Source of the DNA: Poseidonibacter lekithochrous
GTDB taxonomy: Bacteria; Campylobacterota; Campylobacteria; Campylobacterales; Arcobacteraceae
Assembly: GCF_018861145.1 (NCBI RefSeq)
Contig: NZ_JAHKQT010000016.1
Span: forward strand, 1-53,128
DNA: 53,128 nt
Reading direction: 5' to 3'
The notes beneath the pieces are model-generated. The model had not been told where the DNA came from. It saw only the letters and a program-made list of their open reading frames with translations, and made no database searches. Positions 48,326 through 53,128 of the stretch are shown piece after piece; the first letter of the stretch is position 1, and each line of letters begins with the position of its first letter. The position numbers were made by a program, and so were the translations under genes.

Positions 48326-49295
48326 AAAAAAAGATTTATTTAATTATATTAAAATCAGTACAAATTGGAACATTAATGAAAAAGTACTTAATGTAAATCT
48401 ACCTATATATATCAAATCTGCCTATGAATTATGGAATACACAAATAGCTGGAGTTGATGTTTTATTTCTTAAAATTAAAGATTCTAATATAGATATGAGA
48501 ATTCATCAAAATGCAGTAAAAAAAATAGAAGAGCCATGCTCTTGTAATACAGTTCTAGTTTTTGAGAAATTAGATAATAGGAATTCAAATAGTTTAATAA
48601 AAAAACATATTTCATTTATTGTGCAAAATAAACAAATTTATATACCTTTTGCATTAACTCAAATTAAAACTGAAGATAAGAAAATTAATTTAAAAAGATT
48701 TAATCAATTAAGTGTTGATGCTGATATGATACTAGTCTCATATTTAGATAATAGAATTACTAATAAAATAATGATAAAAGATATTGCATCAGTAATTAAC
48801 AAAGATTCTCGAATGGTTTCTAAAGCTTTAGATGTTTTATTATCTATGAAGTTAATTAGTATTGAAAAAGTAGGAAGAAGTAAACATATATATTTTGAAA
48901 GTAAGAAAGAAATATATTATTATTTAAAAAAGCATATACAAGTACCTATTAAATACTCATTTTATGTAAATGAGTATTCTTCTAATAATATCGTTTATAG
49001 TGGATACACAGCATTATCAATTTATTCATCATTTATTGATGCAACTATAAAAACAATTGCTATTGATAATAAAGAAGTCAAATCTTTAAATATAAAAGAA
49101 ATTGAATGTGAGAAAGAATCTGCAAAATATAAAATTGAGGTTTGGGATAGAAACCCTAGTCTTTTTTCAAAAGATAAGGCAATAAATCCCTTGTATCTAC
49201 TAAGATTATTTACAAATATAGATGATGAACGTACAGAATATGCTCTAGATGAAATAGAAGAAGAAATTATAAATAAATTTGAGGATAATAAATGA
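48318..49295 (+). CDS. Winged-helix antitoxin-like regulator (AbiEi-type, putative)
   Basis: 325 residues. A winged-helix segment lies at ~130-200 (MIKDIASVINKDSRMVSKALDVLLSMKLISIEKVGRSKHIYF). The C-terminal third (VYSGYTALSIYSSFIDATIKTIAID, WDRNPSLFS, DDERTEYALDEIEEEI) resembles proteins that sit before AbiEii-type nucleotidyltransferases in type IV toxin-antitoxin pairs. The N-terminal ~120 residues are not recognised. Four-base overlap (ATGA) with the downstream nucleotidyltransferase gene supports the pairing. The start codon lies in a 17-bp inverted repeat. A plasmid replication initiator was considered but the partner gene fits better. Confidence 0.65.
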   Translation: MKTKKDLFNYIKISTNWNINEKVLNVNLPIYIKSAYELWNTQIAGVDVLFLKIKDSNIDMRIHQNAVKKIEEPCSCNTVLVFEKLDNRNSNSLIKKHISFIVQNKQIYIPFALTQIKTEDKKINLKRFNQLSVDADMILVSYLDNRITNKIMIKDIASVINKDSRMVSKALDVLLSMKLISIEKVGRSKHIYFESKKEIYYYLKKHIQVPIKYSFYVNEYSSNNIVYSGYTALSIYSSFIDATIKTIAIDNKEVKSLNIKEIECEKESAKYKIEVWDRNPSLFSKDKAINPLYLLRLFTNIDDERTEYALDEIEEEIINKFEDNK

Positions 49296-50046
49296 AAAGT
49301 ATTGATTATATAGGCTTAAGTCATTTTCAAAATTACTGTAAAGATTTTGATGAACATTATGTTGTTGTAGGTGGTTTTGCAACAGTAATGTTACTAGATG
49401 AAGAATTTGGAAGTGATCATGGTAAAGCAACTTATGATATTGATTTAGTAATTTTAACTAATAATTCAATAGAATTATAAAAGAATATGTAAAAGCAGGG
49501 CAGTATAAAATTCAAATTGGTGAAAAAGATAAATATAGATATTACAGATTTATACAGCCTGAAATCGAAGATTTTGCAAAAGAAATTGAATTATTTGCAT
49601 CAAATGAAAATACGCTTGAACTAGAAAATTCTCAAAGAATTATTCCTATTGATCCAAAAAAAGGTCTTTACTCTTTATCTGCAATAATGCTTGACCCTGA
49701 ATATTTCGAAATGATTAAAAATAACATAGATAAAAGAGGAGTTGCACCAAGTACAAATACACAAGCTACTATCATGCTTAAAATGTCTGCTTTTTATGAT
49801 TTAAAAGAACGTGGAGATAAAAAGTGGAAAAAACATAGAAGAGATATTTTAAAACTCTCTTTGCTTTTAACAGGAGAAGAAAAAATAGAGTTAAATGGAA
49901 GAATGAATCAAGATTTTGATGGCTTTTTTGAACATCTTACTCAAGAATTAGATCCAAAATCTATTAAATCATTTGCCGACGGCTTACCTATAATTAAAAA
50001 AGAAGTTATTAAAGTATTAGAAAAAGTCTTTATTCAAAATAATTAA
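49292..50046 (+). pseudogene. AbiEii-like nucleotidyltransferase toxin, frameshifted
   Basis: The first 62 codons (to a TAA at 49478-49480) hold the nucleotidyltransferase core: VVVGGFATVM (Gly27-Gly28) and the metal site ATYDIDLVIL (Asp49, Asp51). The reading continues in the -1-related frame from about 49466, as NRIIKEYVKAGQYKIQIGEK, through IIPIDPKKGLYSLS to a stop at 50044-50046, together making a ~250-residue protein of normal family size. A single missing base between about 49466 and 49480 explains the break. Either the toxin is dead or the base is a sequencing error. Only short A-runs are present, so programmed frameshifting is unlikely. Partner of the preceding regulator. Confidence 0.72.
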
Positions 50047-50917: not shown

Positions 50918-51241
50918 TATAAGCTCCTAATAATTATTTCTATATAAAAATATAAAGTAATATATAAAATATATTTTTATTATAACTAATAAAGAATTAA
51001 TATTTTATTTATATGTTTATATAATAATTCTATATATAAATATATATTTTTATATAAAATTAATTCTTAAAATAGTATAAATTAAATTTATTAATTTATA
51101 ATTTTAAGTAAATATATTTAGTAGCTTTATTTTGATAATACAATCTTTATAAATATTAATAATTAATTAACATTAAACTACATTATTAATAATATTTAAT
51201 GATATGTACTTTCCATATATTTACAGCTAAACTTTAGGTAC
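50918..51241. other. Extremely AT-rich gene-free DNA upstream of parA
   Basis: Nearly pure A/T with many TATATA runs and no ORF. AAGAATTAAT (50992-51001) and ATTAATTCTT (51059-51068) form a spaced inverted repeat. Position upstream of a ParA operon suggests promoter/operator or a centromere-like site; low information content prevents a firmer statement. Confidence 0.4.
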
Positions 51242-51340
51242 AAATATTTAGAGCTTGGTAGGCGCACAATCTTGCTTGATTTGTTTATCACTTGATAAAC
51301 TATCAAGCTCTAAGTATTTATTAGTTTGTGCATCTACCAA
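51242..51340 (+). repeat. Interleaved inverted repeats with two mutually exclusive folds
   Basis: Fold 1: 51242-51257 pairs with 51304-51319 (16 bp, one G-T), extendable by three pairs. Fold 2: 51255-51269 pairs with 51326-51340 (about 14 bp with one mismatch; GGTAG..GCACAA with TTGTGC..CTACC). Inside fold 2, CTTGATA 51291-51297 or GCTTGAT 51274-51280 can pair with the TATCAAGC segment at 51301-51308. The arms share bases 51255-51257, so the folds compete or form a pseudoknot. Confidence 0.75.
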
Positions 51341-51601
51341 ATATGCAATCTAATTTTACTTACTAATCAATTCATTTTAATTATATACAGAAATCCACTT
51401 GATTGTCGGAGAATAAAATAATATATAAAAACAGGAGGTAAATAATAGCCCGCGTAAGTTTTGGCGACAACCGAGCTATTATAAATAGACTAATAGTATA
51501 ACAAAAAAATAACATTTTATCAATACTTGTCAAATTTTTTAAAACAACTTAAATGTTGAGAATAAAGTATTGTTCATAATATATGATAGGCATAATCTCT
51601 T

Positions 51602-51811
51602 GTGTCTGATGAAGTAACCATCTTTGGGGCTTATTCTAGTTAAATAGTAACCCAAAAAAACGCCATTTGGTGAATAAATAAAAAAGAGACACTACGGTGT
51701 GTGCAGGAATTTGGAAACAAATGACTAGGGACAGAACTCCCTTTTAGCAAAAAGTGGACTACATGCAGAAATGGCGTAGTGTTTGATACTAGATACTCAA
51801 CCAAGCTTGAG
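51602..51811 (+). repeat. Interleaved stem domain with GNRA tetraloop hairpin
   Basis: ACGCCATTT 51660-51668 pairs with AAATGGCGT 51769-51777, and ACACTACG 51689-51696 pairs with CGTAGTGT 51775-51782: the order is 1-2-1'-2', sharing three bases. Smaller elements: TTTGGG 51623-51628 / CCCAAA 51651-51656; ATTTG-GAAA-CAAAT 51709-51722; AGGGA 51727-51731 / TCCCT 51738-51742; CTCAA 51796-51800 / TTGAG 51807-51811; GTGTCT 51602-51607 / AGACAC 51687-51692 as an alternative pairing. Confidence 0.65.
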
Positions 51812-52134
51812 GCAACTTTTTACTAAGTCTAACTATTAACTTTACTTTGAATTACCAATCATTGATATAATTTATAACAAATAGATATGTAAAATATATG
51901 GTATCGCATTACCCACCATGAAACCTCGTTAGTATGAGCATGTAAAAATACTAACTAAAGCGACGACGGCTCATTCTAAGGGTTATTTATGTTAAAAGCT
52001 TGTGTTTTTCAAAGCCAAGCTTTTGTTTACTTCCTCTGGTCTAAATCCAGAGTTATTTATTAAAAGAAATAAAAAATAAACTTTTTAATAGTTAAATTTA
52101 AAAAAAGACAAAATTATAAATATGAGGATAAAAA

Positions 52135-52510: not shown

Positions 52511-52744
52511 ATGCAAATAGCCAAAGATTTAGATATTAATGATAAAACTTTATATAGTTGGTTAAGAGAATATAAAAAAGCAAATAGTATTCATGTTGAC
52601 AATAGGCGAACTACTCAAAAAACTTCTTTAAAAGAAACATTAGACGAAGAGAATAAACGTCTAAGAAAAGAGCTTGCTATTGTTAAGCAAGAAAGAGAAA
52701 TTTTAAAAAAGACAACCACATACTTTGCAAAAGAAACTCTATAA
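52511..52744 (+). pseudogene. IS3 orfA, N-terminally truncated
   Basis: 77 codons: IAKDLDINDKTLYSWLREYKKA is the end of the helix-turn-helix of an IS3 OrfA, followed by the leucine-zipper-like EENKRLRKELAIVKQEREILKKTTTYFAKE. Only a few in-frame codons (ILVTSP) lie before the first ATG, after a TGA at 52490-52492, so about the first 25 residues of a normal OrfA are missing. Confidence 0.82.
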
Positions 52745-52746
52745 AG

Positions 52747-52945
52747 TATGCTTTGATAAAAGAACATCAAATGAGTTTCAGTGTTACCCTTATATGTAAA
52801 GTATTTAAATTAAATCGAAGTGCTTATTATTATTGGATTAAAAATGGTTGTGTTGTAAATAAGATTGATGAACAGTTAAATAAGCTTATCAAAGATATCT
52901 TTATTCAATCGAGACAGACGTATGGAACAAGACGATTAAAGCACT
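52747..52945 (+). pseudogene. IS3 orfB (DDE transposase), C-terminally truncated
   Basis: In the frame -1 to orfA: LIKEHQMSFSVTLICKVFKLNRSAYYYW then IFIQSRQTYGTRRLKH, the start of an IS3 OrfB (HTH_21 region). The DDE catalytic core is entirely absent; the frame ends at a TGA (52945-52947) created at the junction with the following gene. Confidence 0.8.
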
Positions 52946-53128
52946 GATCTGTCAACAGTAGAAGATGGAACTGATGAAAAAATATTTAATCAGTTTGATG
53001 TAAATGTATTTGGTTTACTAAAAGTTACTAGAGCAGTTCTTCCTCATATGAGAGAAGCAAAAACAGGAATAATAATTAATATTAGTTCATTTTTAGGAAA
53101 AATAGGATTTCCTCTTTTAGCTCATTAT
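52946..53128 (+). pseudogene. Short-chain dehydrogenase fragment lacking its N-terminus; runs off the window
   Basis: 61 open codons to the window edge: DLSTVEDGTDEKIFNQFDVNVFGLL, then RAVLPHMREAKTGIIINISSFLGKIG and FPLLAHY. This is the middle of a classical SDR, with the N-x-F-G and I-N-I-S-S catalytic-serine segments. The NAD(P)-binding N-terminus (about 65-75 residues, TGxxxGxG) is missing, replaced by IS3 sequence. The catalytic Tyr-x3-Lys would lie just beyond the edge. Probably a chromosomal gene cut by insertion and later deletion. Confidence 0.78.

Follow-up and report, generated by a model that had tools for sequence, protein, structure and literature searches.

A large structured RNA gene in Arcobacteraceae and its relatives on integrative elements of Campylobacterales

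To our knowledge, very few structured bacterial RNAs are longer than 500 nt, and those carried by mobile elements are mostly without known function. The Rfam covariance model library includes GOLLD and ROOL; GOLLD assembles into a multimeric cage, and very high expression is typical of ROOL. OLE and raiA/ModT are likewise large structured bacterial RNAs whose function is partly unknown. GOLLD consists of two halves, one conserved and one variable (PMC12286853), and Lactobacillus salivarius has an abundant megaplasmid lncRNA of the general ROOL sort (PMC5643018). PLE satellites and phage ICP1 produce abundant intergenic non-coding transcripts, that of ICP1 being about 800 nt long (PMC7567579). 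Arcobacter sp. L was surveyed by Stav et al. 2019, in which rare intergenic motifs confined to one genus stayed unnamed (PMC6429828).

The RNA described here shares with GOLLD a length of ~800 nt, pseudoknots, a place on mobile DNA near tRNA genes, and a constant and a variable half (PMC12286853), but in our case it is the 5′ end whose topology is constant, and the variation lies in the 3′ part. With ROOL it shares a large, ornate, pseudoknotted fold and a patchy occurrence near tRNA islands (PMC12286853), but the taxa and the carrier are different and there is no sequence or model match. The Rfam covariance models of GOLLD and ROOL gave no match at the gathering threshold or at E<=10. Phages or prophages carry GOLLD, often near tRNA islands; the present RNA was seen at tRNA clusters and on integrative elements, and IMG/VR viral contigs, searched with three exact patterns, held no copy, unlike the case of GOLLD and ROOL. 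GOLLD and ROOL are analogues of this RNA, not relatives. OLE and raiA/ModT belong to other sequence families, which are reported from Gram-positive or Bacillota hosts, and no Rfam match links them to the present RNA. The PLE and ICP1 RNAs are similar by description only, the PLE RNA sitting between inverted repeats (PMC7567579).

The window (the whole 53,128-nt stretch of Poseidonibacter lekithochrous DNA that was analysed) contains a segment at 51242–52052 for which a preliminary description had proposed an undescribed large non-coding RNA. A DNA search with 51200–52100 as the query showed homology over 51239–52057, and the last base of a terminator-like hairpin is 52052, so the proposed limits were nearly exact. 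The segment is also free of genes and richer in G+C than its flanks (0.28–0.34 against 0.10–0.27), as had been described. The longest listed ORFs were 50–54 aa, none of them convincing, and the longest stop-free frame (59 codons) did not exceed the 63 codons expected in shuffles; a protein-coding reading was therefore dropped. Rfam 15 gave no family for the segment or its homologues at the gathering threshold or at E<=10, only tRNAs and chance matches, and no published description of an RNA in 51239–52060 was found in the literature searched, in agreement with the first impression that it belonged to no recognised family. ARAGORN detected no tmRNA, with its tRNA-like ends and tag frame, in the window or the homologue loci. 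Plasmid and phage records gave short chance matches only, and the window's own genome held no further copy beyond chance AT-rich matches. We conclude that 51239–52060 on the + strand is almost certainly a discrete gene for a real structured large RNA of ~820 nt. The RNA is previously unnamed and forms a new family among the large structured bacterial RNAs, one that is not in Rfam 15. As genus-confined Arcobacter motifs stayed unnamed in the survey of Stav et al. 2019, an unnamed earlier sighting is possible (PMC6429828). The features of the gene are collected in Table 1.

Table 1. Positions in the window of the RNA gene and of the sequence and structure elements in and around it.
Feature	Position	Strand	Basis or remarks
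Promoter-like site TGTACT-N17-TAAACT	51205..51233	+	Upstream alignment; matches the homologues' TTTACA-N17-TATACT in register
Large structured ncRNA gene, class A	51239..52060	+	BLAST homologues in five genomes, 76-85% identity; no Rfam match
P1 helix	51242..51319, arms 51242-51261 / 51300-51319	+	Same position in classes B and C
P2 helix, interleaved with P1 (pseudoknot or alternative)	51255..51340, arms 51255-51268 / 51327-51340	+	
Small hairpin TTTATC/GATAAA between P1 arms	51284..51299	+	3 compensated pairs
AGGAGG, Shine-Dalgarno-like	51433..51438	+	In most class A/B copies; no conserved start codon
Stem-loop with conserved loop UUUGGCGAC	51442..51482	+	Common to classes A and B; stems changed
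Core domain (model R1)	51581..51690	+	Helices 51596-51601/51684-51689, 51617-51620/51668-51671, 51623-51628/51651-51656
GNRA (GAAA) hairpin ATTTG-GAAA-CAAAT	51709..51722	+	Most class A copies retain GGAAAC on a varied stem
Strongly conserved segment GACTACATGCAG...GATACTAGA	51752..51815	+	Alignments; recognisable in class C too
Hairpin with constant loop GAGCAUGUAAAA and variable stem	51928..51955	+	4 compensated pairs
Hairpin AAAAGCTTG...CAAGCTTTT	51994..52024	+	Alignment; stems changed in relatives
Terminator-like hairpin CTCTGG-TCTAAAT-CCAGAG with T-rich tail	52034..52061	+	

Among 104 Arcobacteraceae genomes, 23 carried the RNA, nine in the form of class A and 14 of class B. A DNA search of 200 related genomes gave five full-length class A copies (G091, G087, G026, G016, and G044; query 40–858, 76–85% identity) and three diverged ones (G062, G069, and G047). 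Class B has the first ~340 nt in common with class A and then continues with a different 3′ part of ~600 nt. R1, a 110-position covariance model built on the class A core, was searched against 399 genomes of the order and matched at full length in three other families with 36–43 bits. These copies, called class C, span roughly 650–850 nt at the DNA level, and BLAST added four more genomes to this class. With covariance models and BLAST together, about 15 carrier genomes were found in the three further families of Campylobacterales. Matches of the combined model R2 across 387 genomes of the phylum were confined to Campylobacterales. The class B model also matched in one f16 genome and partly matched in two f20 genomes; the f20 copies, as read from the sequence, have the same 5′ helix pair and a class B-like end.

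Some copies were incomplete. In L056 (G009) the P1 hairpin is missing between AATATTT arms, and the remainder of the class B RNA is retained. The second copy in G097 (L047), also of class B, breaks off after ~436 nt and is followed by an HsdR-like gene. The class C copy of G209 (L160/L123) ends after the core and is followed by an apparent C-terminal end of a tyrosine recombinase; G209 also has a class B-like copy.

The 16 pairs of the class A core were paired in 99.3% of cells. Their covariation score was 0.431, against 0.197 ± 0.026 in shuffles (0/500), and it reached at most 0.132 when the partners were slid. With class C added the score was 0.625 (0.197 ± 0.022 in shuffles), a value that leans towards the model because the alignment was fitted to it. 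Several class A helices vary through compensatory change among relatives, and a 3′ hairpin of class B showed six compensated pairs against at most three in column shuffles. Pairs in both the core and the 5′ pseudoknot are maintained by compensatory change, contrary to the outcome that the preliminary description had named as grounds for giving up the RNA, and this change exceeds the controls, as is generally asked of a structured ncRNA.

At the 5′ end the interleaved complementary arms were found as the preliminary description had claimed, with 20 bp in P1, and the order P1a-P2a-P1b-P2b is present in all three classes. P1 in class A showed eight compensated pairs against a maximum of four in 20 column shuffles; P1 is the less telling helix, because its sequence is common to classes A and B. 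P2 forms up to 17 bp from sequences that are unrelated between classes. The mean pairing score of P2 arms in cis was 30.1, compared with 13.2 ± 3.2 after arms were swapped between classes, and a plain alignment of classes A and B showed three P2 pairs with double changes. P2 was weak in two copies (G090 and G047). Folding energy was set aside as evidence: the + strand gave a z of −2.4 (0/20 shuffles as good) and the minus strand an almost equal −2.2, so that energy alone is weak proof.

As P1 and P2 have bases in common at their junction, they may compete or pair between molecules. Competition of this kind would also suit a regulatory RNA that controls integration, excision, copy number, or the expression of a repressor or excisionase, either in trans or as a P1/P2 switch. 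In several class B elements an integrase is close to the RNA, along with an HTH or ParA gene, and in three genomes a small HTH-like ORF lies within the RNA, between the pseudoknot and the remainder; both fit such a role. Hundreds of conserved tertiary-like bases, however, exceed the needs of an antisense regulator, the gene neighbours vary, and G389 keeps the RNA though its adjoining integrase is a fragment. We consider regulation unlikely to be the main role.

Across the family, hairpin loops are fixed and their stems vary. The stems around loop UUUGGCGAC are AAUAGCCCG/CGAGCUAUU in class A and AGCAAUUCUU/AAGAAUUGCU in class B. Loop GAGCAUGUAAAA has the counterparts GAGCGUGnAAAA in class C and GAGCUGAACAA in class B; the constant loop GAGC(A/G)UGnAAAA at 51936–51947 has matching loops in both classes. 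GGAAAC is constant in classes A and C, and the GNRA-capped hairpin was present at the place where it had been reported. The loop motif UAAAUCC near the 3′ end is common to classes A and B. The conserved AGGAGG word could touch the 16S rRNA tail.

The size, the pseudoknots, and the highly conserved unpaired segments would also be compatible with a catalytic RNA (a divergent intron or other ribozyme) or with the guide RNA of a nuclease. Against this, the Rfam models of the group I and group II intron cores gave no match, no reverse transcriptase or nuclease gene occupies a fixed position, and host genes are not interrupted, which makes this explanation very improbable.

A TTTACA-N17-TATACT-like site, read from the alignments, recurs just upstream of class A copies, and a promoter consensus scan gave no real excess over shuffles in this AT-rich upstream region. 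Two terminator-like hairpins were found in the region (one of them at 52034–52052) against 0.2 expected. The location of the copies at island ends beside tRNA genes could in principle reflect a conserved DNA site, an attachment site or origin, which folds by chance and is not RNA. The compensatory pairs, the constant loops on variable stems, the strand-specific terminator, and the recurrent promoter-like sites suggest RNA instead, and in one element (G344) the attachment repeats are tRNA-Leu sequence with the RNA outside them. A DNA site is thus scarcely credible.

The G344 element displays 127-nt direct repeats, 97% alike and spaced 4013 nt, each composed of the 3′ part of tRNA-Leu(tag) and 72 nt of flank. 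The RNA lies just inward of the left repeat in this 4-kb element, with a tyrosine integrase inward of the right repeat. The RNA as integration site was ruled out for G344, as the attachment repeats exclude it. Copies elsewhere are patchy and sited beside tRNA clusters or integrases. Eight of the 11 R1 loci in other families lie directly downstream of the tRNA cluster (Pro-)His-Arg-Arg-Leu(tag), and a ninth lies at tRNA-Leu(caa). This position is independent support for these loci, because the search used no tRNA information. Two class A copies of genus g10 occupy the equivalent cluster, after tRNA-Leu(tag). TTTTTACTAC words are repeated just 3′ of tRNA-Leu in L115–L122, L163, and L164; they are present whether or not the genome has the RNA at this site, and may be integrase arm sites.

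The preliminary description had placed the RNA on a plasmid-like island beside parA. A ParA-like gene does stand beside the RNA, as do a nucleotidyltransferase-like gene broken by a frameshift and a fragment of a transposase. A plasmid, however, is not the specific carrier: the copies reside on integrative islands in chromosomes, frequently at tRNA genes. The RNA is cargo of integrative elements, not specifically of plasmid DNA. The nucleotidyltransferase-like (AbiEii-like) reading frame at 49292–50046 is split by a frameshift, and its pieces had no Pfam match. The stretch between parA and the RNA (50950–51240) is extremely AT-rich (9.7% G+C) with long imperfect repeats, and an IS3-type transposase fragment at 52511–52960 is broken off near the contig end.

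G389 and G322 contain the same island with 88% identity, and the RNA is missing from G322, where an imprecise deletion has removed it and fused its promoter side with a decayed integrase. That the RNA moves precisely on its own was dropped as a candidate, since this event is an imprecise deletion and not an excision. The G322 island persists without the RNA, which is therefore dispensable there.

Near 28 elements, 141 neighbour proteins included seven type I methylases, seven specificity subunits, and seven phage integrases, as well as MmeI and AbiEii proteins; they matched 239 PADLOC models. The 117 control proteins, taken from one fixed window in each of 20 carrier genomes, matched 12 PADLOC models; the families listed for them included a single HsdR and no integrase. 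As the controls are few and PADLOC models overlap heavily, the difference is a strong trend and not a calibrated statistic. No recurrent protein partner was found among the 141 neighbours of the 28 elements. That restriction and AbiE genes are strongly enriched nearby would agree with a defence or counter-defence RNA, which might be an anti-phage module carried as cargo or might belong to a toxin-antitoxin-like system. Islands carry such genes anyway, however, and the RNA has no fixed partner toxin and no ToxI-like short repeat unit; we judge this role somewhat less likely still than regulation.

The explanation we favour, and regard as probable, is that the RNA resides on integrative elements, has its own promoter and terminator, and acts as a predicted folded particle, perhaps a multimer, that benefits the element. 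As cargo, the RNA would occupy one end of integrative elements of Campylobacterales, at tRNA genes or beside integrases. Its putative transcription would start at its own promoter and stop at its own hairpin terminator, and it would act as RNA. Long-range or inter-molecular contacts would be the role of the 5′ pseudoknot and of the hairpins with constant loops, and from these contact-like features we infer a stable folded particle. Two features favour a particle like those of GOLLD and ROOL: the contact-like loops and the pseudoknot stay constant amid sequence turnover, and one 5′ domain occurs with different 3′ parts, much as GOLLD combines its conserved half with a variable one (PMC12286853). 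Taken by itself, the stable particle, perhaps multimeric, is by this analogy quite possible, if short of probable. The predicted particle would benefit the element through maintenance, or through interplay with superinfection and defence. Loss of the RNA from the retained G322 island speaks against the particle, as do the absence of a recurrent protein partner and of copies in the viral contigs searched; its main rivals are a regulatory role in the element and interplay with defence. More doubtful is an element-borne RNA nanoparticle superfamily in Campylobacterota, with three classes that would share a pseudoknotted 5′ domain and constant contact loops, form RNA-only multimers in the service of integrative elements, and have arisen independently of GOLLD and ROOL. 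The many natural variants, alternative 3′ parts, and broken copies, together with at least one element whose attachment repeats can be seen, offer a comparative handle on the role of such RNAs and bring Campylobacterota, some of them culturable, into the large-RNA problem.

Short reading frames were observed inside a few copies. The HTH-like ORF (72–83 aa, ...TSKDCAEALGISTRTLDERRK...) occurs in L057 (G058), L070 (G036), and L071 (G006), where it occupies part of the RNA upstream of the class B core, after the 5′ pseudoknot and before AAGGAGG. G093 has a different ORF of 88 aa, which ends directly before AAGGAGG.
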